Assembly: GCA_022820365.1 (NCBI GenBank)
Contig: JAJEFO010000106.1
Coordinates: forward strand, 1-46,523
DNA from: Silicimonas sp.
GTDB lineage: Bacteria; Pseudomonadota; Alphaproteobacteria; Rhodobacterales; Rhodobacteraceae
DNA length: 46,523 bases
Direction: 5' to 3'
Below are positions 11,936-25,939 of this stretch, piece by piece. Made by a program: the position numbers and the translations under genes. How positions within the stretch are numbered: the first letter of the stretch is position 1; each line of letters opens with the position of its first letter. Below the pieces are notes generated by a model. The model made no database searches. It saw only the letters and a program-made list of their open reading frames with translations, and was not told where the DNA came from.

Positions 11936-12787
11936 TCACAGGTCCACTTCAAGAAAGCAGTTTCGAAGCAATTCCCAACTTTGCCTGTTGCGTGCGACCA
12001 GCAATTGTCCATGCGATCTCAAGGCGGAGTATGGCGCGCAATCATCAAGCATCGCGGCATGTAGACCTGCCTCTCGACAGATCAGCTCCCCGGCGGCGTG
12101 ATCCCACGGTTTCAATAGCCCCGAGATCATGAAATCGACGGCGCCCTCCGCCAAGAGCCAGTACTCGTGGCATGAGCAGCGAAATGACATGATGCGGTCA
12201 AACTCGACAAGCCGCGGAGCAAGCCAGCGCTGGGTTTCCTTCGGGTAAAGGAACAGCGGAACAAAGCCCGTCTTTGGATCGCCCTGTTGCGTTGATGAAA
12301 TCCGCACTATCGTTCCGGCGGAGGAATGGCGAAAGGCGCCTCGCCTTGCGCTCGCCGTGATCCAACCGTCGGACATGGGATCATAGAGAAGACCAAAGGC
12401 TGTGCGACCGTCAACGACGATGGCCAACATCACACCGAAGAGCGGCAAACCATTGGCGTAGTTCCAAGTTCCGTCGATTGGATCGACGATCACCGAAATC
12501 TCGCTGTCGCTCATGCGGTCCAGAAGTGTCGGGCTCTTGGCAACGGCTTCTTCCCCGACGATCAGCGCACTCGGGAAGAGCTGAGCGATCCCTTCGGCAA
12601 TGCGGGATTCGGCGACCCTGTCTGACACGGTGACCAAATCGTTGGCACCTGACTTTGTCTCGATCTCGCTTTCCGAAAGGGAGCGGAAACGAGGAAGGAT
12701 CTCGATACGCGCGGTGTCCCGGACGAGCTTGACCAGCGCGGCGGCGTGCTCCTCAGTGACGGGCGATGGAATGGGACCTCTACTCAT
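11936..12787 (-). CDS. Inositol-monophosphatase-family phosphatase (left cassette)
   Basis: 283 residues. The Mg-dependent, Li-sensitive phosphatase signature is complete: VGEE (E79/E80), DPIDGTWNYANG (D102, D105) and KPWDHAAGELICREAG (D229). The family hydrolyses inositol phosphates, fructose-1,6-bisphosphate, histidinol phosphate or PAP; which applies here cannot be read from sequence. The ATG at 12787 overlaps the stop of the DUF1868 gene by eight bases (ATGAGTAG), showing co-translation. It is the last gene of the importer operon, so it probably dephosphorylates the imported, processed compound. A 40-base gap separates it from the detached ROK gene fragment downstream. Confidence 0.9.
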   Translation of the reverse strand: MSRGPIPSPVTEEHAAALVKLVRDTARIEILPRFRSLSESEIETKSGANDLVTVSDRVAESRIAEGIAQLFPSALIVGEEAVAKSPTLLDRMSDSEISVIVDPIDGTWNYANGLPLFGVMLAIVVDGRTAFGLLYDPMSDGWITASARRGAFRHSSAGTIVRISSTQQGDPKTGFVPLFLYPKETQRWLAPRLVEFDRIMSFRCSCHEYWLLAEGAVDFMISGLLKPWDHAAGELICREAGLHAAMLDDCAPYSALRSHGQLLVARNRQSWELLRNCFLEVDL

Positions 12788-13526
12788 CGGCCTGGCTGGT
12801 CCCAAGAAATGCGACACGCTCAAACGCGTGCATCGAGTCAAAGTTGCACAATTCGACCGGTCCGAACGAAATCGTCCCGACCTCATCGCGAAATCGCTCG
12901 GTCAGGTCGCGGCTGAATTCAACAATTTCCTCCGCTGTTTCGTGCGTCACCCATTCAACGAGATAGGCGAGCGTGATGTGAAAGACATAGGCGACAAAAT
13001 CCCGTTCCTCGATCCCGGTAGCCTCCCACAGCTTGCACCTCGTCCGGCGCAGCGCATCTTCTTCGGCCTCGTCTGCGCCGGTCATCGTCACGCTTTTTCC
13101 CGCGAAGAGATCGACCATCCGCGCCCGCTGCTGGGTCGGAACATCGAGAGCGCCAGTGCGGTCCCTGAGAAAGCGGGTCCGGTCATCGCGCGACGCGTCA
13201 AGCAATTCCCTGGGGACTGCGCAGCGCGGTTGGGTAATCGAAGACAGCCCTTGAAATATGGTCATGTGGAAGCTGGACGGCGGCAAAAAGGTGTAGAAGC
13301 GCTGGAACCGGCTCTTCTTGATCTCCTCTTGCATTGCGCGCAGAGCCACATGCGCGCTCGATGCCGGGTCGACGTGGCAGAGGAAAGTGTTGCCAGGCCA
13401 GTGCTGCACGGTGCCGTCCGTGTGGAACTTGCCGCCGCCCTTGGGCACCGAAATGCCTTCCGGATGCGGATTTTCCGCGAGATTGCCGGTCAGATAGTCG
13501 ATTGGATCGGGACGCTTTGGCCTCAT
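12780..13526 (-). CDS. DUF1868 / 2H-phosphoesterase-like protein
   Basis: 248 residues. Two HxT motifs in 2H-phosphoesterase context are visible: SFHMTIFQGL (H87, T89) and FHITLAYLVEW (H183, T185). Proteins of this superfamily (2'-5' RNA ligase, cyclic phosphodiesterases) use the paired HxT motifs to open or form cyclic or 2'-5' phosphodiester bonds. I recognise the rest as DUF1868-type (HTDGTVQHWPGNTFLCHV). The substrate is unknown. AAGGAC precedes the ATG at 13526; an upstream in-frame ATG at 13592 would run into the ATPase gene. It is sandwiched between the ABC ATPase (13 bp away) and the phosphatase (8-bp overlap), so I infer a role on the imported compound. Confidence 0.8.
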   Translation of the reverse strand: MRPKRPDPIDYLTGNLAENPHPEGISVPKGGGKFHTDGTVQHWPGNTFLCHVDPASSAHVALRAMQEEIKKSRFQRFYTFLPPSSFHMTIFQGLSSITQPRCAVPRELLDASRDDRTRFLRDRTGALDVPTQQRARMVDLFAGKSVTMTGADEAEEDALRRTRCKLWEATGIEERDFVAYVFHITLAYLVEWVTHETAEEIVEFSRDLTERFRDEVGTISFGPVELCNFDSMHAFERVAFLGTSQADE

Positions 13527-13539
13527 GCTTTGTCCTTGC

Positions 13540-14601
13540 TTATGTGGATTGAAGTCGTTTTCCCGATGTCGGGTCGAACAGTCGGGCGGCATCCTCCACG
13601 AACCGGACCGAGAACGTCTCGCCAGGTGTCATGCGACGACAGAGCGGGGTCGCGACGTGCAGTTTCTGGCCGTCCGCGACTTCCGCGACGATTATGGAAT
13701 GCGATCCCAGGTCTTCGCTGTAGACGTTTCGGCAGGGAATGCCGTCGGGCACTATCTCGATGCTCTCAGGACGGATACCAAGTGTCACCGGCCCGCGAAA
13801 CGGCATTGTCGCCAAAAGGGTGCCGTTCGGGAGTCGTATCCCGGAGCCATCGCCTTCCGCATTCAGGAGGTTCATGGCGGGTGCGCCGATGAAGGTCGCG
13901 ACGAATGTGGTCGCCGGGTTTTCGTAGAGGTCCGATGGTGCGGCATATTGCTCGATCTCGCCATTGTTCAAGAGCATGATCCTGTCTGCCAACGTCATCG
14001 CCTCGACCTGATCATGGGTCACGAAGACTGACGTGGCGCCAATCCGTTCGTGCAGACGCGTCAGTTCCATGCGCATGCCTTGGCGCAGCTTTGCATCAAG
14101 GTTCGAGAGCGGCTCGTCATATAGAAGCACCGAAGGTTCCCGGACAATGGCACGGGCAACGGCCACGCGCTGCCGTTGGCCACCGGACAGTTCTGATGGG
14201 CGGCGGTCCAGGAGCCCATGTAGTCCAACGCTCTCGGCGGAGGCCTTGATTCGTTCGCAGCGCTCCCTTTTCGGAACGCCGGCGACCTTGAGGGCATACC
14301 CGATATTGTTCCGCACGGTCATGTGCGGGTAGAGCGCGTAGTTCTGGAATACCATTGCGCAGCCGCGTTCCTTGGGGGCCAAATCCTGCACTTCGCGAGC
14401 GCCGATCCGTATCGTCCCGGAAGTCACGCTTTCCAGGCCCGCAATCATGTTCAGGAGCGTCGATTTCCCGCATCCCGAAGGACCCAGGATGACCGTGAAT
14501 TTCCCGCCATCTATCTCAGCGGTAATGCCGGGTACAACGAGATTGTCGCCAAATGTCTTGCGGACTTCATGCAGAGCGATCGAATTGTCGGCCAACGTCA
14601 T
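13540..14601 (-). CDS. ugpC: ABC importer ATPase, UgpC/MalK type
   Basis: 353 residues. Walker A GPSGCGKST (40-48), Q-loop MVFQNYALYPHMTV, signature LSGGQRQRVAVARA, Walker B LLYDEPLSNLDAKLR and the switch histidine in VFVTHDQ are all present. A C-terminal regulatory (OB/TOBE) region follows (LGIRPESIEIVPDG). This is the carbohydrate/CUT1-type ATPase energising the two permeases upstream. The ATG at 14601 overlaps the stop of the preceding permease by four bases (ATGA). The symbol reflects operon context (UgpB-like binding protein); a different organophosphate or sugar is possible. Confidence 0.93.
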   Translation of the reverse strand: MTLADNSIALHEVRKTFGDNLVVPGITAEIDGGKFTVILGPSGCGKSTLLNMIAGLESVTSGTIRIGAREVQDLAPKERGCAMVFQNYALYPHMTVRNNIGYALKVAGVPKRERCERIKASAESVGLHGLLDRRPSELSGGQRQRVAVARAIVREPSVLLYDEPLSNLDAKLRQGMRMELTRLHERIGATSVFVTHDQVEAMTLADRIMLLNNGEIEQYAAPSDLYENPATTFVATFIGAPAMNLLNAEGDGSGIRLPNGTLLATMPFRGPVTLGIRPESIEIVPDGIPCRNVYSEDLGSHSIIVAEVADGQKLHVATPLCRRMTPGETFSVRFVEDAARLFDPTSGKRLQST

Positions 14602-15518
14602 TTCTCCGACAGGTTGAGGCCGCGCACGATCTGGCGCTGCATTACGCCGATCAGGACCACCGGGATGAACGATACGAAGAGAGCGCCGGCCATGAGCAGC
14701 GGGACGTCCGGAATGTCGTCCGGTTCGGCATTCGCAAGTTTTGCCAGTCCGACGACCGCTGGCTGAGCATCTGGCGTTGCGGCCGCTACCAGCGGCCAGA
14801 GATACTGTGTCCATCCCCCGATGAACCAGAACATGAATGTCGCTACGAGGGGCGTCCACGAGAGCGGCAGCAGGACGTCGACCATGAATCGGCAAGGTGA
14901 CGCTCCATCCATGGCTGCGGCGCGCGGCAGGTCCTTCGGCAGGCTGAGGAAGAACTGGCGGTAGATGAATACGGACGTGGACGATGTCGCGATGGGCAGC
15001 GCCACGCCGATATAGGTGTCAAGAAGGCTCAAATTGAAGTCGGGCATCGTGCCGAAGATCCGTTCAGAAAGCCAGGCGAGGCCAGTGATCCGAATCAGCC
15101 AGTTGAGCGGCATTGCGACATTTGCGACCACCTGGTACGTCGTGATGACCACGAGTTCGAGGGGCAGCATCACGGTCGCTATGGTCAGCGCAAATATAAT
15201 CCGGCTCCATCGGCAGTCGTAGAAGACAAGCGCGAAGGTGGCCGTGAACGCAAATGTACATTTGATCCCTGCGACGAGGATCGAAATCACGAAGGAATTC
15301 CAAAGCTGTCCCGGCAATTGGGTTTCGACGAAAATCCTTCGCATGTTGTCGAGGAAGCTCGACCCGACATTCAGCCCGATGCCGCCGGCACTGACAAACT
15401 CTTCGTAGGACAAGGTCGCCGTGAGAAATGCGATCACGATGGGCGCAAGGATGAAGGCGATGCCAACGATGAGGATCACGAGGGCGGTTCGGTCAATGCC
15501 TCGGGTGTCTTCAACCAT
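14598..15518 (-). CDS. ugpE: ABC importer permease, UgpE/MalG type
   Basis: 306 residues with about six membrane segments, starting LVILIVGIAFILAPIVIAFL. The cytoplasmic EAA-like loop AAAMDGASPCRFMVDVLLPL couples to the ATPase. The gene follows the UgpA-type permease with a 5-base gap; the ribosome-binding site GAGAGGTAG overlaps that gene's stop codon. It forms the second half of the membrane channel. Confidence 0.92.
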   Translation of the reverse strand: MVEDTRGIDRTALVILIVGIAFILAPIVIAFLTATLSYEEFVSAGGIGLNVGSSFLDNMRRIFVETQLPGQLWNSFVISILVAGIKCTFAFTATFALVFYDCRWSRIIFALTIATVMLPLELVVITTYQVVANVAMPLNWLIRITGLAWLSERIFGTMPDFNLSLLDTYIGVALPIATSSTSVFIYRQFFLSLPKDLPRAAAMDGASPCRFMVDVLLPLSWTPLVATFMFWFIGGWTQYLWPLVAAATPDAQPAVVGLAKLANAEPDDIPDVPLLMAGALFVSFIPVVLIGVMQRQIVRGLNLSEK

Positions 15519-15523
15519 CTTCG

Positions 15524-16453
15524 CTACCTCTCGTACTTGACGAATCTTTCTAGGCGGAACTGAAGGATCACCATGACAATGACGAACATCATCAGAAGCG
15601 CCGTCTGCGTCGCCGCTCCAGAAAGATCGTACGCTTTGAAGCCATCGACATATATCTTGTAAATCAGAAGGTTGGTGGCACCGCCGGGACCGCCTTCGGT
15701 CATCGTGTCGATCAGCCCGAACGCTTCAACCACGGTGCCGACAAACTCCAGAACGAACGTGAGGAAGAGCTGAGGCGTCAATAGCGGCAACTGCAGGTCG
15801 ACGATGCGTCGCCACGGTCCTGACCCGTCCATCGCGGCCGCCTTGGCGAGCATGTCTGGAATGGCCTGAAGTCCCGACAGAAGAATTATGAAGTTGAAAG
15901 GTATGCCGTTCCAGATTTGCGCGATGACGACCGTGATGAAGGCATCGGCTCCATCGATTCGGGGGTTCCAGATTCCAGGAGAGATCTCGTTCAGCGGCGC
16001 GAAGATGCCGAGAAAAGGGTTGAAGATGAAGACGAAGACCACGCCGATCGACGCTCCGGCAACCGCCTTGGGCCAGATGATGATGTTTCTCGCGGCCTGA
16101 CTGATCCGGATGCTCCTGTCAGCAGCCAGGGCGAGAATGAGCGACAGCCCGATGGCCAGCCCCGGGGCGACCACCATGAAGATCAGCGTGCGCCACATCG
16201 CGTTCCAGAACTCCGGGTCCGAAAGGACTCGACCATAGTTCTGGAAACCCACAAATTCCGATCCGCCGCCAAACGGGCGCTCGAGAAAGAATGACCAGAA
16301 GAAGGCAAGTGCCACCGGAATGTAGAAGAACATCACGATCAACACGAGAATCGGCAGGACAAGCGACCAATAGCTAAGGCGGCCCGTGTAGAAACCTCTT
16401 GTCATGGACGCAATTCTCGCAGCGCCAGCAACGAGGACGAGGCGCGAACGCAT
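15524..16453 (-). CDS. ugpA: ABC importer permease, UgpA/MalF type
   Basis: 309 residues with about six membrane segments (LVLPILVLIVMFFYIPVALA onwards) and the EAA loop KAAAMDGSGPWRRIVDLQLP. It pairs with the UgpE-type permease. The ATG at 16453 follows GAGGACG; a later ATG at 16405 fits the usual family N-terminus but has no ribosome-binding site. The gene starts 21 bases after the stop of the binding-protein gene. Confidence 0.92.
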   Translation of the reverse strand: MRSRLVLVAGAARIASMTRGFYTGRLSYWSLVLPILVLIVMFFYIPVALAFFWSFFLERPFGGGSEFVGFQNYGRVLSDPEFWNAMWRTLIFMVVAPGLAIGLSLILALAADRSIRISQAARNIIIWPKAVAGASIGVVFVFIFNPFLGIFAPLNEISPGIWNPRIDGADAFITVVIAQIWNGIPFNFIILLSGLQAIPDMLAKAAAMDGSGPWRRIVDLQLPLLTPQLFLTFVLEFVGTVVEAFGLIDTMTEGGPGGATNLLIYKIYVDGFKAYDLSGAATQTALLMMFVIVMVILQFRLERFVKYER

Positions 16454-16474
16454 CGTCCTCGCTCCATGGCCGAA

Positions 16475-17779
16475 TCACGGCAGTATGGCGCCTTGGTAGG
16501 TCTGCTCGAACCGGCGCAGAAGCTCGTTGCCGCGTGACACTGCGTTGTCGAGTGCCGTCTGCATGGTCTGGTCGCCATTGAACGCCTTCTGGGTCTCTTC
16601 CTTGAAAACTTCGCGGAACTGAACGTAGAATCCGAGACGGATGCCGCGCGAGTTCTCGTCGCCAGGCTGGTTGAGAGAGGCCACTCCCATTTCCGCCGTC
16701 GCGAATTCCAGCGTGTCCGCCTTACCGCTTTCAACGAGCGATGCAAGAGCTGCCTTGGTGACCGGCATATAGCCCGTCCGGCGGGTGAACTCGATCTGCT
16801 GATCCACGTCGCGGACAAAGTCGAGGAAAGACCGCGCCGCCTCGTAGTCGGCGTCATCGTGTCCTTTCATCACCCAGATCGATGCGCCGCCGATCAGGGT
16901 ATTGCGTCTCTCCACGCCGTCATACATCGGCGCCATCGAGATCTTGACCTTGTTTCCGAGAGCACCGTATGCGGCGCCGTACGATCCGGTCGACGCTTCC
17001 ATCATGGCGCATTCGCCTGCATTGAAGGCAGCGTTGTACTTGCCAGCTACCGTGTCTTGGTCAAGCTTCACGAGCCCCTCTTCGCGCCACGCAGCGAGGT
17101 TCAGCATGTGGTCGGCGACGGGCCCGCCGTTGAAGGTGTACTCGGCGTCGAGGCCACCGTAGCCGTTGTTGTTGGACGCGATCGGCGCACCATGGCGAGC
17201 GCTGAATTGTTCGAGCACGCGCCAAGGATGCGCATCGGTTGTGAACGGGCATGCGACGCCTGCGTCCTTCAACTGACGGGCGGCTTCCATTGCACCTTCC
17301 CAAGTTTGGGGAACCTCGTCGATGCCTGCCTCACCCAACATTTCCATGTTGGCATAGAAGATCAGGGTCGAGCCGTTATAGGGCTGGGAGATCAATTCGC
17401 CCGCAGAGGTTTCGTAATACGACCGCGCGCCATTGATATAATCGTTCCACGGCGCGTCCGGCATGATCTCCTGGACCGGTACGACGGCGTCAGAGAGCAT
17501 GAGGTCCAGTGTGCCAGCGTCGAAGAACTGGATCAAGACGGGATGCTGGCGCGAACGGTATGCAGCGATTGCCTTTTGCATGCCTGCTTCGTATCCGCCT
17601 TGGCCAACGCAAGTGATTCTATGCACCGTCTGCGCTTCGTTGAACGCCGCGCAGTGTGCTTGGATTGCTTCTTCGATTTTTCCGGTGTTACCATACCAGA
17701 ATTCGATGTTGGCAGCGTGGACGGCACTTGCGCCAACCAGAAACGCCGCCGTGCAAGTCATGGAGTGAAGTTTTGTCAT
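16475..17779 (-). CDS. ugpB: Periplasmic substrate-binding protein, UgpB-like
   Basis: 434 residues. A signal peptide (residues 1-23, cleavage probably after SAVHA) exports it to the periplasm. Several blocks resemble UgpB, the glycerol-3-phosphate / glycerophosphocholine-binding protein: EASTGSYGAAYGA, LIGGASIWVMKGHDDADYEA, FTRRTGYMPVTKAAL, SRGIRLGFYVQFREV and DNAVSRGNELLRRFEQTY. The ATG at 17779 follows AAGGTGA with 6-nt spacing. It is the first gene of the six-gene minus-strand operon and diverges from the first ROK regulator, which probably controls it. Homology supports an organophosphate ligand, but the exact ligand is not proven. Confidence 0.9.
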   Translation of the reverse strand: MTKLHSMTCTAAFLVGASAVHAANIEFWYGNTGKIEEAIQAHCAAFNEAQTVHRITCVGQGGYEAGMQKAIAAYRSRQHPVLIQFFDAGTLDLMLSDAVVPVQEIMPDAPWNDYINGARSYYETSAGELISQPYNGSTLIFYANMEMLGEAGIDEVPQTWEGAMEAARQLKDAGVACPFTTDAHPWRVLEQFSARHGAPIASNNNGYGGLDAEYTFNGGPVADHMLNLAAWREEGLVKLDQDTVAGKYNAAFNAGECAMMEASTGSYGAAYGALGNKVKISMAPMYDGVERRNTLIGGASIWVMKGHDDADYEAARSFLDFVRDVDQQIEFTRRTGYMPVTKAALASLVESGKADTLEFATAEMGVASLNQPGDENSRGIRLGFYVQFREVFKEETQKAFNGDQTMQTALDNAVSRGNELLRRFEQTYQGAILP

Positions 17780-17899
17780 GGGAATCACCTTGTGGTTCGG
17801 ATGTGAGTGGATACTAAGTTGTTACAGTATTAGTGTAAATAAAAAAACACCTAACGTGTAAAAAATTGTGGCGAGAGCAATTTGGATTCGGAGAGGGGC
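17780..17899. promoter_or_regulatory. Divergent control region of the Ugp-like operon and its ROK gene
   Basis: This 120-base AT-rich intergenic region separates the minus-strand importer operon from the plus-strand ROK gene. TTACA (17822-17826) and TGTAA (17834-17838) form an inverted repeat with a 7-base spacer, and a further GTGTAAA half-site occurs near 17856-17862. TTACA/TGTAA half-sites also occur in the control region of the second cassette (20334-20346), so they are good candidates for ROK operators. Promoter hexamers are not clear. Confidence 0.5.
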
Positions 17900-19063
17900 G
17901 TGGACGCGCGTATATACAAGCCGGAAGACCTTATCTTTGACAGATTCCTGCGCGACCAGGGTGCCGGCGAGGTTGCTTCAACAAACGAGCGTGCAATCCT
18001 GCGCCAGGTCTGGCGAAAGCCCGGATTGCAGCGGTCGGACCTGATCGGCGGGGTCGGTCTGACGCAGCAGTCGATTCACCGGATCGTCGATCAGCTGGGA
18101 AGTCGGCATCTCATCACGCTCGGCCCTCCGGTTCCCGGAACCGGTCGCGGGAAACCGAGCCCAACCATCTGGTTGAATCCCGAGTGGGGACTCTCGGCAG
18201 GCATATCGCTGGAAACCGACAGTGCCGGGGTCACGGTCATGGACGTTGCTGGTCGGAACCGCACGCGCCGCATTGATCTCGAAGGCGCGGGGCGTCTTGC
18301 CGGCCTGCGCCTGATGGATCGCGCGCTTGACGAGATCCTGGCGGAGTTTGACGCGACACGGGATGCCCTGCTCGGCATAGGATTCGGCATCACCGGATTT
18401 CGAATTGGCGGAACCCGCTTCAACCCCCCTGTGCCATTGCAGGACTGGGCCCTGATTGATTTGGGCCCATTGCTCTACGAACACTTTGGAGTACCTGTCT
18501 GGGTTGAGAATGGCGCGAACTGCTCGGCGCTTGCGGAGTCGACTCTTGGAATAGGTCGCAGGGTTGGCAATTTCGCATATCTTTCCTTCAACTACGGATT
18601 TGGCGGGGCAGTGATCTCGGAAGGAACACTTCTTCGGGGATTTCGCGGAAATGCGGGCGAGTTCTCTGCGATATTCGACATTGAAGACAACAAGCGCCGT
18701 CCGGCGCTCGGCATCCTGCTGAAGCAGCTCCGGGCACAGGGCGTCGAGATCAACACGATCACCGAACTCCGACAATCCTTCGATCCGTCTTGGCCCGGTA
18801 TCGAATCCTGGGTCGAAGAAGCGCTTCCTTGCTTCAACCGCGTGGTGAACGCGCTTTCGGCCATCGTTGATCCCGAGGTAATCGTCCTTGGCGGTCAGAT
18901 TCCGCGGGTTCTGGCTGAGACATTCGTCGCAAGAACCGAGTTTTGGAGCAATCCAAGATTTGGCGTCACGCGTGAAGTCCCGCGTCTCGAAATATCCGAA
19001 CTCGATGACGAACCGTCTTCCATTGGAAGCTCAACTCTACCGATCGCGAGTTGTTTGCTGTGA
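17900..19063 (+). CDS. ROK-family transcriptional regulator (left cassette)
   Basis: 387 residues. An N-terminal winged helix-turn-helix (NERAILRQVWRKPGLQRSDL, then LTQQSIHRIVDQL) is followed by a sugar-kinase-fold ROK domain (GIGFGITGFRIGG, LSFNYGFGGAVISEG). The ROK catalytic Asp is absent (NGAN instead of NDAN), as expected for a non-enzymatic regulator. The usual zinc motif (H..CxCGxxGC) after GNAGE is also missing. I chose GTG at 17900, which follows GGAGAGG; a TTG at 17882 would add six residues. It is divergent from the ugp-like operon and convergent with the second ROK gene (92 bp apart). It probably represses the importer until a phosphorylated or sugar ligand binds. Confidence 0.88.
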   Translation: MDARIYKPEDLIFDRFLRDQGAGEVASTNERAILRQVWRKPGLQRSDLIGGVGLTQQSIHRIVDQLGSRHLITLGPPVPGTGRGKPSPTIWLNPEWGLSAGISLETDSAGVTVMDVAGRNRTRRIDLEGAGRLAGLRLMDRALDEILAEFDATRDALLGIGFGITGFRIGGTRFNPPVPLQDWALIDLGPLLYEHFGVPVWVENGANCSALAESTLGIGRRVGNFAYLSFNYGFGGAVISEGTLLRGFRGNAGEFSAIFDIEDNKRRPALGILLKQLRAQGVEINTITELRQSFDPSWPGIESWVEEALPCFNRVVNALSAIVDPEVIVLGGQIPRVLAETFVARTEFWSNPRFGVTREVPRLEISELDDEPSSIGSSTLPIASCLL

Positions 19064-19134
19064 AGCAATGTGCGCCACAGGCAATGGTGCAGCCGAACCT
19101 GTCTGATTGGGTTGAACAGGTACCATGTGCAAAC

Positions 19135-19248
19135 TTGCATGCCGGTCGCCCCTGACTAGTCCGACAGGGAGGTTGAGCCCGGAAAAAAACTTCGAAAGAT
19201 CGGGACGCTTGCCGCACCGACCGGACCGCAAAGGTCGCCCAGGCCTGT
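19135..19248 (-). repeat. Right copy of the 113-bp direct repeat (3' end of the second ROK gene)
   Basis: This stretch covers the last ~31 codons and ~21 downstream bases of the second ROK gene. It is the source-like intact copy of the fragment at 11783-11895. Both repeats start at TTGCATGCCGGT and end at AGGCCTGT. Confidence 0.85.
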
Positions 19249-20283
19249 CGCGTACAAGGGTGCGGCCGTGAGCCCGCGTGACGGACCTTCGACCCCTTCG
19301 CGCGCGATCTCCGCTGCAATGATGTCACTTATGAAAGACGGGAGCATTCCGCCCATCACGATCACTGTTGGATCAAACAATCCGCTGACCAGGCGGACCG
19401 TCAGCTTGATCTGCTCCTTGGCCCGATTCTTCCACGCCGCAAGTTCCGGTGAAAGAGCCGTGGCGCTTCTTTCGGAGTCAAAGACAGAGGATGGTTCAAG
19501 CCCCAGGTCCTTGAGATATTCTTCCAGGTCCTGAAGGGTCGGTCGGGGCTGGCCGTATGGAAAGAGTGCTCCGGGCAGACAGGCATTCCCGTTATGCCCG
19601 CGATATGGCCGTCCGTTCAGGACCGCGCCGCCGCCGAACCCGGCGCCGATGTGCAGCATGAAGAGTGTGTCGGCATCGTGGCCGCCGAACAAGTACTCCC
19701 CGAGAGCCGCCGACGTGCCGTCGTTTTCCAGAAAGACCGGCCATTCTCCATAGTTCAGGAGCGCCTTCTGGATGGCAGAGCCGTCAAGACCCAGAAACGC
19801 CTCATGGGCTTCGACGGATTTCCCGAAGGAGCCGAAGTTTCCGGGAAGACTGAGTCCTACGCCCAAAAAGACACGCCCTGTGCCGCGGACTGCGGGCAGC
19901 AACTCCTCCGTGAGGACGTTCATGGCCTCCACGACGTTTTCGGCGGAACCCTTTCCCAATGATCTGCTGTCCTGTGCGATCACCTTGCCGCCAAAGTCGA
20001 TGAGTGCTGCCTGGATCTTGTCAGTGAAGAGATAGAACCCCAGTGAGCAGAACTGCTGCCGGCGGATCTCGAGAAGTTTCTTGGGCTGGCCGCGAGCGCC
20101 GTCCTTGAGAGTTGATTCCGAGAAAAGACGGAGTTCCATCAATCCGGCCACCAGCCTCGTGACGCTGGCCGGAGTTATGTCAGCCGCGGCCGCCAAATCG
20201 ACCCTGGCTATGCGTTCGTGCCGAAACACCAGCTCGACCAGCCTGCGTTCGTTCAGCGACAAGTTCCTGGGCAGTAGCATCAT
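19156..20283 (-). CDS. ROK-family transcriptional regulator (right cassette)
   Basis: 375 residues. The N-terminal winged helix-turn-helix (LNERRLVELVFRHERIARVD, ITPASVTRLVAGL) precedes a ROK domain (GVGLSLPGNFGSFG, ENDGTSAALGEYLFGG, LHIGAGFGGGAVLNG). Unlike the first ROK protein it keeps the ND pair, but it too lacks the CxCGxxGC zinc cluster; the corresponding region reads GHNGNACLPGALFPYG. GAGGAG lies 8 nt upstream of the ATG at 20283. It diverges from the FbpA/AfuA-like importer operon and probably regulates it. Its 3' end is duplicated at 11783-11895. Sequence identity between the two ROK proteins appears low, so they are not a recent duplication. Confidence 0.9.
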   Translation of the reverse strand: MMLLPRNLSLNERRLVELVFRHERIARVDLAAAADITPASVTRLVAGLMELRLFSESTLKDGARGQPKKLLEIRRQQFCSLGFYLFTDKIQAALIDFGGKVIAQDSRSLGKGSAENVVEAMNVLTEELLPAVRGTGRVFLGVGLSLPGNFGSFGKSVEAHEAFLGLDGSAIQKALLNYGEWPVFLENDGTSAALGEYLFGGHDADTLFMLHIGAGFGGGAVLNGRPYRGHNGNACLPGALFPYGQPRPTLQDLEEYLKDLGLEPSSVFDSERSATALSPELAAWKNRAKEQIKLTVRLVSGLFDPTVIVMGGMLPSFISDIIAAEIAREGVEGPSRGLTAAPLYATGLGDLCGPVGAASVPIFRSFFPGSTSLSD

Positions 20284-20428
20284 GTGTCATCTCCTCGATC
20301 CCGCAGGGAACACAGTGCCATGAAAATATTACTTTACACAATGTAATTTATTATGCAGACTGATTCCAGTCTGAAAGTCTCACGCAGAGACCCGTGAAAA
20401 ACACGAAACACAAAAGGAGGAATGTCCA
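20284..20428. promoter_or_regulatory. Divergent control region of the right importer cassette
   Basis: This AT-rich intergenic region lies between ROK2 (minus) and the binding protein (plus). TTACA (20334-20338) and TGTAA (20342-20346) form an inverted repeat with a 3-base spacer. The half-sites match those in the left cassette's control region (17822-17838), although the spacing differs. A near-ideal ribosome-binding site, AAAAGGAGGA, precedes the binding-protein start. Operator function is inferred. Confidence 0.5.
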
Positions 20429-21439
20429 ATGACAACGAAGGACTGGCTGACCGGCGCGACGGCATTGCTGTGCTTTCTCGGAACCTCGGCGGCAACTGCA
20501 GAGCCGCTCATCGCATACTCGCCGCAAGGTGAAGAGCGTGCCGTGTGGATCGCCGAGCAAGCCCAATCCGCCGGACACGACGTGACGATTCTGGCGGCCG
20601 GCGGCGGGGAGCTCTTTGACCGCATCCTTGCCGAAAGGGCGAACCCGCAGGCGGACGTCGTGTTTGGCCTGATCGATGCCGCAATGGCCACCTTGAAGGC
20701 CGAAGGACTGTTCCAGCCTTATGTTCCGAAATGGGCCGAGGGCCTGCCCGAGGTCTATCGCGACGATGCAGATCACATGGTCTACAAGTTCTGGCAGACG
20801 CCGGTCGTGATTGCGTACAATGCGGATGCGCTGACGGAAGCTGACGCTCCCGCGAGCTGGCTGCAACTCGTTGAGGACCGGTATGCGGGAAAGTACGTCA
20901 TCGGTCCCACGACGTGGCAAACGACGAAGACCTACCTTGTCGGGATGCTGCTTCGCTTCGCCGATGAAGACGGCGAAATCTCGGACGCGGGTTGGGACTT
21001 CATGCAAGAACTCTATGACAATGCCATCGTCGCAGACAGCGCGGATGCCAAGACCGCGGCTTTCGTCAACGACGAAGCCGTTATAGACCTGAACTGGTTC
21101 GGCGGTGTCGGGCGCTTGGCGGAAAACGTTGGCTACAAGGCCGTCATGGTGGATACCGAAGGCGGAACGCCCTTCATCGCAGAGGGAATCGCCATCATGA
21201 AGGGGACGGATCAGCTTGATGACGCCAAGGCTTTCGTGGACTGGTTCGGGTCTCCGGAATTCATGGCCGCCTATGCCGCCGAATTCGGTCAGGTTCCCGT
21301 TCACCCCGACGCGATTGCGGCAGCCCCGGACGCGGTCAGAAGGAACGCAACCCTTCTCCAGCCGCAACCGATCGACTGGGATGTCGTGGCGCCAAGGATC
21401 GACGGCTGGATCCAGCGTATTGAACTCGACATCAGGTGA
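20429..21439 (+). CDS. Periplasmic binding protein, FbpA/AfuA type
   Basis: 336 residues with a signal peptide (cleavage probably after SAATA, residue ~24) and a type-2 periplasmic-binding fold of the iron/thiamine/hexose-phosphate group: LIAYSPQGEERAV at the mature start, ADVVFGLIDAAM, TPVVIAYNADALTEADAPAS, AEGIAIMKGTDQLDDAKAF and VDWFGSPEFMAAY. FbpA proteins bind ferric ion with paired tyrosines, whereas AfuA binds sugar phosphates. I do not see the adjacent tyrosine pair, and the operon carries phosphodiesterase and phosphatase genes, so I favour an organophosphate ligand. It is the first gene of a five-gene plus-strand operon. Confidence 0.88.
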   Translation: MTTKDWLTGATALLCFLGTSAATAEPLIAYSPQGEERAVWIAEQAQSAGHDVTILAAGGGELFDRILAERANPQADVVFGLIDAAMATLKAEGLFQPYVPKWAEGLPEVYRDDADHMVYKFWQTPVVIAYNADALTEADAPASWLQLVEDRYAGKYVIGPTTWQTTKTYLVGMLLRFADEDGEISDAGWDFMQELYDNAIVADSADAKTAAFVNDEAVIDLNWFGGVGRLAENVGYKAVMVDTEGGTPFIAEGIAIMKGTDQLDDAKAFVDWFGSPEFMAAYAAEFGQVPVHPDAIAAAPDAVRRNATLLQPQPIDWDVVAPRIDGWIQRIELDIR

Positions 21440-21514
21440 TTTCGCAATCCGTCCAGACGGTCGGGCATCAGTTCTCCCCTGGTGCCCGGCCGTCAACCGG
21501 AGCAAGGCCCGCTT

Positions 21515-22513
21515 ATGATTGAACTCGACAACGTAAGCATCAGATACGGGCGGCACGAAGTCATACGGCCGATGAGTCTCAGAATTGAATCGGGCGAGTT
21601 CTTTACCCTTCTCGGCCCGTCCGGCTGCGGCAAGACAACCATCCTGCGTGCCATCGCGGGATTCGTGCCGGTCGCGTCGGGAAGGATCACGGTGGACGGA
21701 ACGGACGTAACCGACATTCCCGCGGAAAAGCGCAGCGTGGGCATGGTCTTTCAGAACTACGCATTGTTCCCGCACATGACGGTCACCGAAAACGTTGCCT
21801 TTGGGCTGAAGGTGGCGCGCAAGTCCGGAAGGGAGATTTCGCGCGCCGTCGGTGCCGTGCTCGAAGCCACCGGCATCGAGCAGCACGCCGGAAAGAAACC
21901 CGCCGAACTGTCCGGCGGACAGCAGCAACGCGTCGCCGTCGCACGATCCCTCGTCATGGGCACGCAGGTGCTGCTGTTCGATGAACCACTCTCGAATCTT
22001 GACGCGAAAGTCCGGGAAGACATGCGTCACGAGATCAAGCGGTTGCAGCGGGACATGGGGTTTACGGCCGTGTTCGTCACGCATGACCAGGAAGAGGCGC
22101 TGTCGATGTCCAGCAGGCTGATGGTCATCAACGCCGGGCACGCCGAGCAGGTTGGAACCGCCCGGGAACTGTATGATTCTCCGGCAACTCCGTTCGTCTG
22201 CCAGTTCGTGGGGGCCGCGAACGAGATTGGCCGAAATGTCGCGCGGGATCTGGGTCTCGGCGCGGGCAAACGGCATTTCATCCGTCCGGAACACGTGACC
22301 TTGGCTGAGGCCGGAGATGCGGACAGCATGCACGCGACCGTCACGGACGTCGACTATCTAGGGTCGATGACGCGGCTTTTCCTGGAGGTGTTCGGCGAGC
22401 CGCTGCAATGCCTGGTCCTGAGCGGGGCCGCCGGCAGGAACCTGAACATCGGAAAGGACGTGAATCTGAACTTGGCCCGTGAACGAATCCTCAGCTTCGA
22501 CGATCCGTCATGA
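21515..22513 (+). CDS. ABC importer ATPase, FbpC/AfuC/PotA type
   Basis: 332 residues. Walker A GPSGCGKTT (34-42), Q-loop MVFQNYALFPHMTV, signature LSGGQQQRVAVARS, Walker B LLFDEPLSNLDAKV and switch VFVTHDQEEA are complete. A C-terminal regulatory region with FIRPEHVTLAEAG follows. The ATG at 21515 follows AAGG; in-frame codons upstream lack a family N-terminus. It overlaps the permease gene by four bases (ATGA), so both are translated together. Confidence 0.92.
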   Translation: MIELDNVSIRYGRHEVIRPMSLRIESGEFFTLLGPSGCGKTTILRAIAGFVPVASGRITVDGTDVTDIPAEKRSVGMVFQNYALFPHMTVTENVAFGLKVARKSGREISRAVGAVLEATGIEQHAGKKPAELSGGQQQRVAVARSLVMGTQVLLFDEPLSNLDAKVREDMRHEIKRLQRDMGFTAVFVTHDQEEALSMSSRLMVINAGHAEQVGTARELYDSPATPFVCQFVGAANEIGRNVARDLGLGAGKRHFIRPEHVTLAEAGDADSMHATVTDVDYLGSMTRLFLEVFGEPLQCLVLSGAAGRNLNIGKDVNLNLARERILSFDDPS

Positions 22514-24204
22514 CGCTGTCAGGCATCGGTCGAGTTCCCCTGGTTCGTTCGATCCTGCTCACCGTCGTGATCTGGTGCGCAGTCAGCTTCATCTATGCAC
22601 CCATCTTTTCGGTCCTCCGGTTTGCATTCGCGCCCGAAGGGGACATCAGCCTTGGGGCGGTCGGCGAACTGGCCGGATCCCGGAGGGTTCGAACAGCCAT
22701 CGTCAATACGCTCATTGTAACTGGCCTTTCGATCATCACGGTAAATGTCGTCGGAATCTTTCAGGTCGCGGTTCTGGAATACCTCAAGATCGGCGGCAGG
22801 GGATTTCTCCGTTTCGCCTATTCGACCCCGCTGATATTCGTTTCCGTGGCTGCGGCGACCGGTTACGGATTCGTTTACGGCCAGACCGGCGCGCTCACAA
22901 GGTTGCTGCAGTCCGCGTGGCCCGCTCTGCCGAACGACTGGTTTGCCGGCATCCAGGCGGTTGTCTTTGCGCACACATTCCTTCTGACGAGTTTCCATTT
23001 TCTCTTCCTGAGGGCGGCGATTCGACGGGTCGACTATTCGACCGTTGAGGCTGCAAGAGGCCTCGGTGCCACCAACCTGGAAGCATTTGTCAGGGTCGTG
23101 CTTCCCGTCTTGTTGCCGACGGTCTTCGCGACGACCCTGCTTGTCACCTACAAGTCTCTCGGCTCGTTCGCGATTCCGGCGGTCCTGGGCGGTCGCCGCT
23201 TCGACATGGTCACGGAGCTGATCCTGACGTTGAACGCGCTCAGGCGGCCAGACATGGCCGCCATGCTGTCGATCGGGCTTGGAATCGCCGTAATCCTCTG
23301 CATTGCCGCCATGCAGTACGTTGAACGGCGGGGCAGCTATATCGGGGGCTCGAAGACTCCTGTTCCCATCGAACGCATCCGCATAGCCAATCCCGTCGTA
23401 AACGTGGCGGTTCACGCTGCCGCCTATGCCATTGCGGTCATCCAGCTGGTCCCCATTGCGCTGGTCATTCTCTTTTCGCTGGCGCCAGCCAGGTCCATCG
23501 GAACGGAGGTGCTGCCCAGCAGCCTGACGCTGAAGAACTATGTCACCGTGTTCTCGCAGAACACGGCGTTTGTCCCGCTCAAGAACAGCCTGCTCATGGG
23601 CGCCAGCGCCACCGTTGCCGGGATCCTGATCAGCCTGTTCGTCGTCAATCTCGCGCACAGATACACGAATATCGGCACGACTTCTCTCGATCTTTCGTTC
23701 ATGGTGCCGTGGATCCTGCCCGCCCCCTTCATCGCGGTCGGGTTGATCCTGACCTATGACGAACCGAACCTGCTCGTCGCAAACAGGGTCCTCCTTGGCG
23801 GGTTCTGGATCCTGCCGATCGGCTACGCGATCGTAAGCATCCCCATCATGATGCGCTTCCTGCGGGCCGCGTTCTTTTCCCTCGATCCCGCACTGAACGA
23901 AGCCGCGCAATCATTGGGCGCGCCTGCGCATTACCGGTTCCTGCGGGTGACCATGCCTCTGGTCCTGCCGGTCGTCATCCTCATCGGAGCGATGACGCTG
24001 AACGGCATCCTGAGCGAGTACTCCATGTCTGCGTTCCTGTTCAACGTGAACAACAAGCCGCTGTCCATCGCACTGTTCGAAGGCGCCAGGTCGTCGAACC
24101 CGGAGCAGGCAGCGATCAACCTGGTATACATCACTCTCATCATGGCCTTTTCGCTCGTCATAATCACGCTTGCCGACAAGTATGGACTGGGCGGCGGGAA
24201 ATGA
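22510..24204 (+). CDS. Fused double ABC permease, FbpB/AfuB type
   Basis: 564 residues with about twelve membrane segments. Two complete permease halves are fused, each with its own EAA loop: EAARGLGATNLEAFVRVVLP (first half) and EAAQSLGAPAHYRFLRVTMP (second half). This double-length form is characteristic of FbpB/AfuB-type importers, so one gene supplies the whole channel. It starts within the ATPase stop codon and is followed after 14 bases by the phosphodiesterase gene. Confidence 0.93.
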   Translation: MTLSGIGRVPLVRSILLTVVIWCAVSFIYAPIFSVLRFAFAPEGDISLGAVGELAGSRRVRTAIVNTLIVTGLSIITVNVVGIFQVAVLEYLKIGGRGFLRFAYSTPLIFVSVAAATGYGFVYGQTGALTRLLQSAWPALPNDWFAGIQAVVFAHTFLLTSFHFLFLRAAIRRVDYSTVEAARGLGATNLEAFVRVVLPVLLPTVFATTLLVTYKSLGSFAIPAVLGGRRFDMVTELILTLNALRRPDMAAMLSIGLGIAVILCIAAMQYVERRGSYIGGSKTPVPIERIRIANPVVNVAVHAAAYAIAVIQLVPIALVILFSLAPARSIGTEVLPSSLTLKNYVTVFSQNTAFVPLKNSLLMGASATVAGILISLFVVNLAHRYTNIGTTSLDLSFMVPWILPAPFIAVGLILTYDEPNLLVANRVLLGGFWILPIGYAIVSIPIMMRFLRAAFFSLDPALNEAAQSLGAPAHYRFLRVTMPLVLPVVILIGAMTLNGILSEYSMSAFLFNVNNKPLSIALFEGARSSNPEQAAINLVYITLIMAFSLVIITLADKYGLGGGK

Positions 24205-24218
24205 ACTGAGGAGAACCA

Positions 24219-25184
24219 ATGCCGCAGCCGACAACCAGCCTGGCCGAACGTTTCCGCAATCCCAACGACCATCCCGGAGAGGTGTTCGTGGTGGCTCACC
24301 GTGGCGTGTTCCTCGATGTGGACCGTGTCATCCTGCCCGAGAATTCCGTGCCCGCGGTCGAACGCGCCCGTCGGATCGGCTGCGACTTCGTCGAGATCGA
24401 CGTGCAGTTCACCTCCGACGGTACCGCTGTCGTCATGCACGACGCGACCTTGGACCGGACGACGGCGGCCACGGGTGAAATCGCGTCCTTCAGTTATTCG
24501 GAACTCAAGGAGATTCCGCTGGTTCATCCGGAAACACGACAGGAATTCCTCGCAAGGATTCCAAGCCTCGAAGAGGTGTTCCAGGCATTGGGCGACAAGA
24601 TGCTCGTGAACGTGGAACTGAAGACGGGCATCGAGGCGATCCCGGAAGTCGCGCGAATCGCTGCAGAAGCTGGCGTTTCGAGTCAGCTTACGATCAAGTC
24701 GAACCTGGGAGACGCCACCCGGTTCGAACGCGTGGCCGAAATTCTTTCACTGACCCCGGATCCGGTCGAATTCATTCCCGTCCTGATCGACAGTCGGGAC
24801 GGTCTTGAAGACATGAAGTCAGCCTGCGACCTCCTGTCTCCGGCCTGCATCGAGTGCATAGTCGACTACGGCTACGGCAATGATGCGGGTTACAATCTAC
24901 TGGCCCGCAGAGGCATGACGATTGATGGCGGCCCTCTGTTCTCGTTGGAAGCCCGCAGGATCGCAGCCGAAAACAACATGCGCCTCTTCGTGAACACGCT
25001 CTTCGTCAATCCGCACATTCCCGGGCACCACCAATGGAACGGCGGGCGAAGTTGTGAACTCGGCAGAATCGCCCCGGACAGCGTCTACGGATTCTGGATC
25101 GCGCATGGTGCAACCGTCATCCAGACAGACGATGCGCCGTTCGTTCTGGACTGGTTGAAGGCATCAGGGTTCCGCGGATGCTGA
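24219..25184 (+). CDS. Glycerophosphodiester phosphodiesterase family protein
   Basis: 321 residues. The GDPD signature is complete: VVAHRG (H27, R28), LPENS (E41), FVEIDVQFTSDG (E59, D61) and MHDATLDRTT (H74). The family hydrolyses glycerophosphodiesters to glycerol-3-phosphate and an alcohol. No signal peptide is seen, so it should act in the cytoplasm on imported substrate, as UgpQ does. GAGGAG precedes the ATG. Its stop overlaps the start of the phosphatase gene by seven bases. The C-terminal part (SVYGFWIAHGATVIQTDDAP) fits the TIM-barrel end. Confidence 0.93.
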   Translation: MPQPTTSLAERFRNPNDHPGEVFVVAHRGVFLDVDRVILPENSVPAVERARRIGCDFVEIDVQFTSDGTAVVMHDATLDRTTAATGEIASFSYSELKEIPLVHPETRQEFLARIPSLEEVFQALGDKMLVNVELKTGIEAIPEVARIAAEAGVSSQLTIKSNLGDATRFERVAEILSLTPDPVEFIPVLIDSRDGLEDMKSACDLLSPACIECIVDYGYGNDAGYNLLARRGMTIDGGPLFSLEARRIAAENNMRLFVNTLFVNPHIPGHHQWNGGRSCELGRIAPDSVYGFWIAHGATVIQTDDAPFVLDWLKASGFRGC

Positions 25185-25939
25185 CCGGCCGGCAAGTGAC
25201 TTCCGGGCAGGAGGACATCGAGACTGTCATGGCGATCCTGGACGCCTCCGGAAAGCGTGCACTCGCCATGTTTGAGCGGATCGACAAACGTCGTGTACGG
25301 GAAAAGTCGCCTGGTGATTTCGTCTCCGATGCCGACCAAGCGCTGGAGCGGGCGCTGTGCAAGCAGCTGGCCCTGGCATTTCCCGGTGACGGCCTGACCG
25401 GGGAAGAGTTCGGCGGCAGCCCGACGGGGACATACTGGACAATTGACCCCATTGACGGGACGTCGAACTTCCTTTCCGGACTCCCGCTCTGGTGCATTTC
25501 CATTGCCCGGATGAAGGGTGACTTGCCGCAGCTGGGCGGCATTCACGCACCGGCCCTTGGATTGACTGCGGCCGGCGGACCCGGACTCGGATTTGCGGTC
25601 CGCGGAACGACCTTTTTTCCGAGCAAGCAGGTACGACCATGTTTTGGCGTCGGACGGAATGCGAACTGGAACGGCACCGAACGTGGATTGCTGGAAGACG
25701 TGATCGAATCTCGGGGCTTCAACATCGTGTCACTGGGCTCCTGTGCAATCTCCCTCCTCTTTGTCGCGCTTGGTCGGTTGTCGGGATATCTGGAGGTTGG
25801 CTGCAAGGGTATCTGGGATTGCGCCGGTGGCATCGCACTTTGCCGCGCAAACGGGATTTCAGCTGATTTCCGGATTGCCGAGGATTCAACCGTCGATGTG
25901 GAAGCCGGATTGTCAACAAACTTGCTGTCCACCGCCTGA
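25178..25939 (+). CDS. Inositol-monophosphatase-family phosphatase (right cassette)
   Basis: 253 residues. The signature residues are present: TGEEFG (E76/E77), IDPIDGTSNFLSG (D90, D93) and IWDCAGGIALCRANG (D214). It should be a Mg-dependent phosphomonoesterase acting on a small phosphorylated metabolite in the cytoplasm. The ATG overlaps the GDPD stop by seven bases (ATGCTGA). If GDPD releases a phosphorylated head group or glycerol phosphate, this enzyme would provide the last dephosphorylation. It is distinct in sequence from the phosphatase at 11936-12787, so the pair looks like convergent recruitment rather than recent duplication. Confidence 0.9.
   Translation: MLTGRQVTSGQEDIETVMAILDASGKRALAMFERIDKRRVREKSPGDFVSDADQALERALCKQLALAFPGDGLTGEEFGGSPTGTYWTIDPIDGTSNFLSGLPLWCISIARMKGDLPQLGGIHAPALGLTAAGGPGLGFAVRGTTFFPSKQVRPCFGVGRNANWNGTERGLLEDVIESRGFNIVSLGSCAISLLFVALGRLSGYLEVGCKGIWDCAGGIALCRANGISADFRIAEDSTVDVEAGLSTNLLSTA

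Follow-up and report, generated by a model that had tools for sequence, protein, structure and literature searches.

Two importer cassettes of separate origin in Silicimonas as probable self-regulated modules for small phosphodiesters

Two importer cassettes with their own ROK regulators

Contig JAJEFO010000106.1 of Silicimonas sp. (assembly GCA_022820365.1), analysed here from position 1 to 46,523 of the forward strand (46,523 nt; "the window"), carries 13 genes in two operon sets that each combine an ABC importer, a phosphodiesterase-type enzyme, an inositol monophosphatase (IMPase)-family enzyme, and a divergent ROK-family regulator (Table 1). The left operon (11936 to 17788, minus strand) is ordered ugpB-A-E-C-like, DUF1868, IMPase family, and the right operon (20429 to 25939, plus strand) binding protein, ATPase, fused permease, GDPD, IMPase family. 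Pfam and NCBIfam scans of the window genes recovered all parts that the original prediction had named, including the convergence of the two ROK genes at the centre. Gene ends overlap as expected within operons, with ATGA at ugpE/ugpC and at the right ATPase/permease junction, ATGAGTAG at DUF1868/IMPase, and ATGCTGA at GDPD/IMPase. Both IMPase-family proteins pass the Pfam PF00459 cut-off and carry the metal-site motifs that, like the HRG/PEN/ExD/HD motif used for GDPD, we take to be characteristic of their family.

The two sides share 27% identity between the ROK proteins, 24% between the IMPase-family proteins, and 48% between the ATPases, and pairwise alignment gave nothing significant for the two binding proteins or for DUF1868 against GDPD, which argues for different origins rather than a recent duplication, as had been proposed from the sequence. 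A comparison of four IMPase-family proteins placed the left one closest to left-type L016 (78%) and L083 (42%; L and G numbers denote loci and genomes) and the right one closest to right-type L081 (40%), and on all these grounds we reject the idea that one cassette was copied into the other. In all, the organism's own genome has one DUF1868 gene and four GDPD matches at three places, and it encodes a second, canonical UgpB on another contig (C97) with Glu/Trp/Trp in its pocket.

Table 1. Genes and predicted operators of the two cassettes in the window.
Feature	Position	Strand	Evidence
Left IMPase-family phosphatase	11936..12787	-	PF00459 136.7 bits; GEE, DPIDGTWNY, WDHAA; open reading frame to 12886, start probably 12787, overlapping DUF1868 stop
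Left DUF1868, 2H-fold phosphoesterase by sequence and predicted fold (phosphodiesterase slot)	12780..13592	-	PF08975 80.2 bits (cut-off 21); 2fsq by sequence and predicted fold
Left UgpC-like ATPase	13540..14601	-	ABC_tran 116.7 bits, TOBE_2; open reading frame to 14895, start probably 14601 (ATGA overlap with ugpE)
Left UgpE-like permease	14598..15518	-	BPD_transp_1 25.7 bits, just under Pfam cut-off 26.4; gene order same in relatives
Left UgpA-like permease	15524..16453	-	BPD_transp_1 47.5 bits
Left UgpB-related binding protein, altered pocket (Asp88, Ala188, Phaeobacter UgpB numbering)	16475..17788	-	SBP_bac_8; relatives PDB 9lff/4aq4; pocket positions
Predicted operator of left ROK regulator, ATTTACACTAATACTGTAACA on minus strand	17820..17840		11/14 to clade consensus TGTNACAC-N5-GTGTNACA, shuffle frequency 0.004
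Left ROK-family regulator	17882..19063	+	PF00480 61.4 bits
Right ROK-family regulator	19156..20283	-	PF00480 58.9 bits
Predicted operator of right ROK regulator, ACTTTACACAATGTAATTT	20331..20349		16/18 to AAATTACNCAATGTAATTT; 0/500 shuffles as good
Right FbpA/AfuA/PhnS-like binding protein	20429..21439	+	SBP_bac_8/SBP_bac_6; PhnS2 83 bits, below cut-off; profile matches P5PA, FbpA-like, AfuA
Right ATPase	21482..22513	+	ABC_tran 121.5 bits; PhnT2 340 bits, below 457.7 cut-off
Right fused two-domain permease	22510..24204	+	BPD_transp_1, two stretches
Right GDPD-family phosphodiesterase	24219..25184	+	PF03009 83 bits (cut-off 23.6); HRG, PEN, EID, HD residues
Right IMPase-family phosphatase	25178..25939	+	PF00459 114.9 bits; GEE, DPIDGTSNF, WDCAG

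The phosphodiesterase slot is exchangeable behind the left-type importer

The left importer belongs to a clade that we define as the window UgpB-like protein plus 19 loci at 56% to 89% UgpB identity (n = 20). The slot after ugpC is occupied by DUF1868 in 8 of these 20 loci (window, L016, L018, L019, L021, L022, L024, and L062), by GDPD in 10 (L083, L085, L117-L123, and L153), and by both enzymes in 2 (L023 and L053), and an IMPase-family gene follows in all except L019 (19/20; its frame is interrupted in L153). A phosphodiesterase-type gene is thus present throughout the clade (in pieces at one locus), and its presence beside this importer and the IMPase-family gene is not incidental, so that the neighbourhood check proposed with the original prediction left it standing. 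Since part of this set had been found via DUF1868 or GDPD, we made a separate, slot-blind count through UgpB alone, in which 13/13 plasmid records at 56% identity or more (the GDPD gene of L121 being in pieces) and 3/3 family genomes besides the own one carry GDPD or DUF1868. In a UgpB tree of the 20 clade members and six outgroup rows, all 20 fall on one side of a branch with 100/100 support, and no fewer than 4 changes are required to account for the slot labels (the UgpB sequences of L119 and L120 are identical). The enzyme in the phosphodiesterase slot is therefore exchangeable behind the left-type importer, and this alternation of DUF1868 and GDPD speaks for identical or closely similar substrates of the two enzymes. 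A Na/Pi-cotransporter gene lies 3' of the IMPase-family gene in four left-type loci (annotated in L083, L122, and L123; recognised by eye in L153), consistent with export of the phosphate that is set free. One Devosia plasmid copy of the left-type cassette (L121, 6705-14354) looks decayed, with its ROK, ATPase, GDPD, and IMPase genes in pieces.

Import-phosphoesterase cassettes of this kind, with five different phosphoesterase families, recur among the alphaproteobacteria sampled. In a second UgpB group (nine loci, 38% to 41% identity; Pfam check for L124 and L126), six loci have a calcineurin-type gene upstream (L050, L052, L056, L126, L149, and L154), and the downstream gene is DUF1868 (L050, L056), EEP (endonuclease/exonuclease/phosphatase) followed by DUF1868 (L052), EEP (L126, L149; on the opposite strand in L125), or PF01261 (L124), with nothing recognised downstream in L154 and L155. 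In 8 same-family genomes, the UgpB gene belongs to a third group (Asp88, with position 188 being His or Gln) and has an EEP-like gene downstream as judged by similarity (L183-L186, L188, L190, L196, and L197).

Left-type UgpB was found in 4 of 149 family genomes (G000, G014, G020, and G080) and the right-type binding protein in 4 of 179 (G000, G020, G080, and G151). Own genome aside, G020 and G080 are the two right-type genomes covered by both searches, and both are also left-type; the chance of this would be 2.8e-4 if the two types were independent, assuming that the 149 genomes are a subset of the 179. Cassettes of this kind tend to lie close together. In G020, a few kb separate a right-type from a second-group cassette, and a left-type one follows on that contig after about another 38 kb. 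None of the other loci read repeats the side-by-side arrangement of the window's two cassettes, and the 18.8 kb of L016, which is the left cassette's closest relative, include no right cassette.

The left binding protein lost half of the glycerol phosphate clamp and kept the phosphate ligands

The left binding protein reaches 279.5 bits with the NCBIfam model of UgpB (NF008211), below its equivalog cut-off of 411. Contacts described for Phaeobacter UgpB include Tyr64, Ser143, Ser266, and Tyr342 for the phosphate, Glu88, Gly303, and Arg393 for the hydroxyls, and Trp188 and Trp191 as a clamp (PMC12718374). We located these positions on a phmmer alignment to 9lff (offset 20, all nine letters agreeing, counted by hand) and read Tyr, Asp, Ser, Ala, Trp, Ser, Gly, Tyr, and Arg in the window protein. 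Like Ugp proper, the left importer is a member of the UgpBAEC family, and its binding protein keeps all four phosphate ligands together with Gly303 and Arg393; it differs in the glycerol 3-phosphate clamp, where Trp188 is replaced by Ala and Trp191 is kept, and by Asp in place of Glu88, as well as in ROK control and the built-in phosphodiesterase and IMPase genes. Asp88 with Ala or Gly at position 188 is present in 20/20 left-clade members, compared to Glu88 with Trp188 in 7 canonical proteins. Further departures within the clade are Thr143 and Asn342 in L022, Asn342 in L062, and Arg191 in L121. The second UgpB group has Pro or Phe at position 188 and Asp at position 88 in 8 of 9 members, and L059, first classed as canonical, has Asp and His at these two positions and carries DUF1868.

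We compared pocket and neighbourhood in a sample of every second of 82 UgpB match rows (41 rows, 40 fetched and analysed), and counted as slot genes those of GDPD, DUF1868, EEP, PF01261, or calcineurin type that lie on the UgpB strand no more than 6.5 kb downstream. Such a gene is present at 0 of 25 canonical Glu88/Trp188 loci compared to 9 of 15 non-canonical ones (Fisher 1.8e-5, with the kinship of the loci uncorrected). The nine positives comprise 8 EEP genes and 1 weak GDPD match (L167, 35 bits). Among the misses, L158 has a calcineurin-type gene upstream and its contig ends less than 1 kb from the ATPase gene, and L193 has an IMPase gene, as has one canonical locus (L175).

Each clade has its own predicted ROK operator

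The region between ROK gene and importer contains a palindrome in each clade. On the left, TGTNACAC-N5-GTGTNACA (consensus from L018 and L062) matches at 11 to 14 of 14 positions in 15/15 regions, covering 15 of the 20 clade loci, with shuffle frequencies of at most 0.022. On the right, AAATTACNCAATGTAATTT matches at 14 to 18 of 18 positions in 7/7 regions, the consensus having been read from these same regions. The shuffles preserved single-base composition only. Each clade thus has its own palindrome as predicted operator of its ROK regulator. A shared operator for both ROK proteins found no support, with the right motif never beating shuffles at 0.05 on the 15 left regions and the left motif doing so once on the 7 right regions (L151, 0.034).

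The right importer and PF01261 proteins

The right importer shares its superfamily with the AfuABC (hexose-phosphate) and PhnSTU (2-aminoethylphosphonate) importers and stays below the NCBIfam equivalog cut-offs listed. Sugar contacts described for AfuA include His205, Asp206, and Glu229 (PMC4546632); in our profile search with the right binding protein, AfuA (4r72) ranked tenth. In the class sample, the right binding protein was found only in its own genome (1/385). We opened six relatives of the right importer (three from the 40 plasmid records listed of 290 matches and three family genomes), all of which have a divergent ROK gene (6/6). Two of them (L080 and L081) also carry, about 1.2 to 1.4 kb past the operon and on the opposite strand, a gene annotated as GDPD family. 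Another FbpA/AfuA-type importer with GDPD and IMPase was found in A. larrymoorei (L084).

The slot is filled by PF01261-type proteins, part of them annotated as sugar-phosphate isomerases/epimerases, in L081 (11688-12623), L082 (11772-12695), L152 (6113-7021), L149 (11579-12571), and L124 (12334-13254). CbiR, whose substrate is a cobamide, proves that the TIM barrels of PF01261 include a phosphodiesterase of small molecules (PMC7733943). The right-clade slot proteins are weakly similar to CbiR, although at 20 to 52 bits they stay well below its cut-off of 105. We propose that this slot subfamily may consist of phosphodiesterases.

DUF1868 is a 2H-type family with several genomic contexts

The window DUF1868 protein carries HxT motifs at residues 109 and 205, as the original prediction had noticed, and two HxT/S motifs are present in 48 of 49 copies (45 by pattern, three by eye; L072 unclear). 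The only solved relative found by sequence is PDB 2fsq (Atu0111), titled as of unknown function. An AlphaFold2 model of the window protein (mean predicted local distance difference test score 73, 55 residues below 50) retrieved 2fsq as best fold match (1.7e-12), followed by mitoribosomal chains, AKAP18, a phage phosphodiesterase, and Usb1 below 1e-3, with weaker matches to CPDases and LigT. By its motifs and modelled fold, DUF1868 is thus a predicted 2H-type phosphoesterase like LigT, CPDase, Usb1, and AKAP18, although it forms a separate Pfam family. The open-licence papers searched include none under the name DUF1868.

DUF1868 occurs in 15/198 same-family genomes, 4/385 of the class sample, and 15/299 of the phylum sample, each figure including the own genome. 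Among 72,556 plasmid records, 14 have it, and 11 of these were opened. The nearest relative of the window protein (80% identity) is encoded in a Boseongicola metagenome-assembled genome (L016). We read 48 DUF1868 neighbourhoods with 49 copies, and a scripted count found importer genes on the same strand, no further than 2.5 kb upstream, in 18. DUF1868 thus has no general tie to import, and we reject it as an obligate importer partner. A further importer case is L052, where the EEP gene intervenes, and importers lie on the other strand in L017 and, with one gene between, in L026. The importers beside DUF1868 are of several kinds, that is, Ugp-like, FbpA/AfuA-like (L027, L028, and L063), or a LacI-linked set in Deinococcus (L025), and the remaining loci have other neighbours. 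Some DUF1868 proteins (L065, 9030-9848; L066, 9411-10184) start with Tat-like or other signal sequences by eye and would be exported, unlike that of the window.

In L072 (9066-9776), DUF1868 has a phnL-like gene on one side and a phnC-like gene on the other, within a C-P lyase cluster in which Pfam confirms phnG and phnI. The same order was found by similarity in L069, L070, L074, and L075, and in L057 DUF1868 lies near such genes. The C-P lyase pathway presumably needs a 1,2-cyclic phosphodiesterase (PhnP), so that a cyclic phosphodiesterase would be expected at this position. No PhnP above cut-off was found in the five genomes with this order and in G127, where DUF1868 lies beside phn-like genes (6/6). 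All 6 genomes have DUF1045, which we take to be another 2H-type protein, on another contig or more than 1 Mb away, and DUF1868 as sole PhnP replacement is therefore not supported.

Proposed mechanism and alternative explanations

Taken as a whole, these observations are best explained if the two cassettes each form a catabolic module that regulates itself and handles one class of small phosphodiesters, a reading that we consider likely; its general part, a module of import, cleavage, dephosphorylation, and own ROK control, we hold with slightly more confidence. The conservation described above lends good support to the original idea that this scheme was built twice. We infer the order of reactions, the cytoplasmic location of the enzymes, and the mode of action and effector of the ROK proteins as follows. 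The periplasmic binding protein would take the intact diester and the ABC importer would move it into the cytoplasm, where the slot enzyme (DUF1868 on the left, GDPD on the right) would split it by hydrolysis into alcohol and phosphomonoester. Phosphate would then be released by the IMPase-family enzyme, leaving an alcohol, polyol, or sugar for growth, and the ROK protein would repress from its own palindrome until a pathway metabolite binds.

Several observations weigh against this reading or narrow it. In 6/6 opened relatives of the right importer a PF01261-type gene (checked with Pfam in L081 and L152, otherwise by similarity or annotation) replaces GDPD, and only 3/6 have an IMPase gene (L081, L151, and L152). 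IMPase-family enzymes have many substrates, and the window pair reaches no NCBIfam equivalog cut-off (81.8 and 60.7 bits with inositol-1-monophosphatase NF008027, cut-off 332; with the best-scoring model, HisN, they likewise stay far below its cut-off). On the left, the well-supported branches of the UgpB tree alone force no more than one origin per slot label, and Tyr342 is lost in L022 and L062. The pocket correlation includes 2 of 40 loci that had been read before (L158 and L159, as L154 and L157); leaving these out gives 0/24 against 9/14 (Fisher 1.2e-5, likewise uncorrected for kinship). Moreover, 6 of the 15 non-canonical loci have no downstream slot gene, and of three that keep Trp188 with Asp88 (L167, L192, and L195) only L167 has one. 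The proposed division into linear glycerophosphodiesters for the right and cyclic diesters for the left cassette could not be established, as GDPD and DUF1868 alternate behind the left importer and the right relatives carry PF01261.

As a substrate of the left cassette, we tentatively favour an inositol-containing diester, glycerophospho-myo-inositol or myo-inositol cyclic phosphate, degraded to myo-inositol. In L153 (G014), iolC (321.8 bits, passing its cut-off), iolB (147, short of 205), and an aldolase-like gene lie behind the ROK gene on its strand and are divergent from ugpBAEC-GDPD-IMPase. The neighbours of DUF1868 in L058 (G082) include an aldolase gene, iolB (145), iolC (310.8, again passing), and genes resembling iolD and iolE. 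A similarity search of collected loci above 6 kb (E 1e-30) found iolB-E matches otherwise only in L167 (weak), in L195 (iolD), and at the own iol locus on C104, where iolC (301.7 bits, cut-off 300) and iolD (768, cut-off 715) pass and iolB (148, cut-off 205) and iolE (175, cut-off 290) stay below; the 25 canonical UgpB loci gave none. The inositol link that had been suggested for the left cassette thus gains circumstantial support, iol adjacency being seen at 1/20 clade loci and 1/48 DUF1868 loci. Our literature search found nothing on point for uptake of glycerophosphoinositol or inositol cyclic phosphate, for ROK with ugpB and IMPase, or for the operon parts together.

Somewhat less likely, both cassettes could serve a general salvage of glycerophosphodiesters and import deacylated lipid head groups (glycerophosphocholine, -ethanolamine, or -glycerol) for carbon or phosphorus, with the IMPase-family enzyme acting on glycerol phosphate. 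The kinship with UgpB, the retained glycerol-side residues, and GDPD in the slot would fit, as would mycobacterial UgpB, a binder of glycerophosphocholine for which Asp102 is described among the glycerol ligands (PMC12718374), presumably at the equivalent of position 88. However, this would leave the iol linkage in L153 and L058 unexplained, and ROK control would point to carbon catabolism rather than Pho control. A dedicated phosphatase would also be unexpected, because glycerol 3-phosphate is normally used directly.

The logic of the module has a precedent, not named in the original prediction, in the acc operon of Agrobacterium for agrocinopine, described as comprising the importer AccA-E, the cytoplasmic phosphodiesterase AccF, the putative phosphatase AccG, and its own repressor AccR (PMC4526662), so what is new here are DUF1868 and the slot exchange. 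Both window cassettes share with it, by family, an importer, a phosphodiesterase, a phosphatase, and an own regulator, and GDPD and IMPase genes recur in an acc-like operon of A. vaccinii (L122) with an oligopeptide-type importer, about 3 kb from a left-type cassette. This annotation matches AccA, which we take to be of the oligopeptide type. Opine-like sugar phosphodiesters (sugar-phosphate-sugar or sugar-phosphate-polyol, the alcohol part being a sugar) as substrates would also agree with Asp70, Gly286, and Arg356 described at the corresponding positions of a trehalose-binding protein (PMC12718374). Yet the window importers are CUT1-like (left) and FbpA/AfuA-like (right), of other families than the acc-like importer in L122, and DUF1868 fills the left slot. 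AccR is not known to be a ROK protein, and we know of no opine source for the Boseongicola group, which has the nearest DUF1868 relative (L016). Opine-like diesters are therefore an unlikely explanation.

Far less probable is that DUF1868 acts as a nucleotide 2',3'-cyclic phosphodiesterase and the left cassette imports nucleotide breakdown products. Well-studied 2H enzymes are described as acting on 2',3'-cyclic nucleotides, and Usb1, LigT, and AppR>p CPDase are among the structures that match the DUF1868 model, yet GDPD replaces DUF1868 behind the same importer, and a UgpB-type protein with conserved glycerol-side residues would be unexpected as a nucleotide binder (we know of none). That the phosphoesterases are incidental neighbours is highly improbable given the conserved order, gene overlaps, slot exchange, and pocket correlation, even if 30 of the 48 DUF1868 loci, in a count that also weighs against the favoured phosphodiester module, have no importer genes within the range scored.

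Flanking genes

A DarT/DarG toxin-antitoxin pair (DNA ADP-ribosyltransferase and macrodomain antitoxin; 26141-27861, PADLOC and Pfam agreeing) adjoins the right cassette, in a region with a G+C content of 0.545 that is lower than that of the flanks. Just left of the cassettes lies an MMPL-family (RND-like) gene (8708-11233, plus strand).

Implications

The slot exchange gives DUF1868 a testable, likely function. More specifically, and as a doubtful proposal at this stage, DUF1868 might hydrolyse cyclic phosphodiesters of polyols, with myo-inositol 1,2-cyclic phosphate as the first candidate. It could act on its own behind Ugp-type importers or on the cyclic product of a GDPD. As the wider part of this proposal, UgpB-type importers would be split into monoester and diester branches by Trp188/Glu88, the diester branch carrying whichever of several phosphoesterase families it acquired. 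The position of DUF1868 in C-P lyase clusters also speaks for the proposal. We offer Trp188 and Glu88 (UgpB numbering) as a two-residue rule to separate glycerol phosphate importers from probable diester importers, a rule that bears on the recycling of lipid head groups and inositol by marine and plant-associated bacteria.

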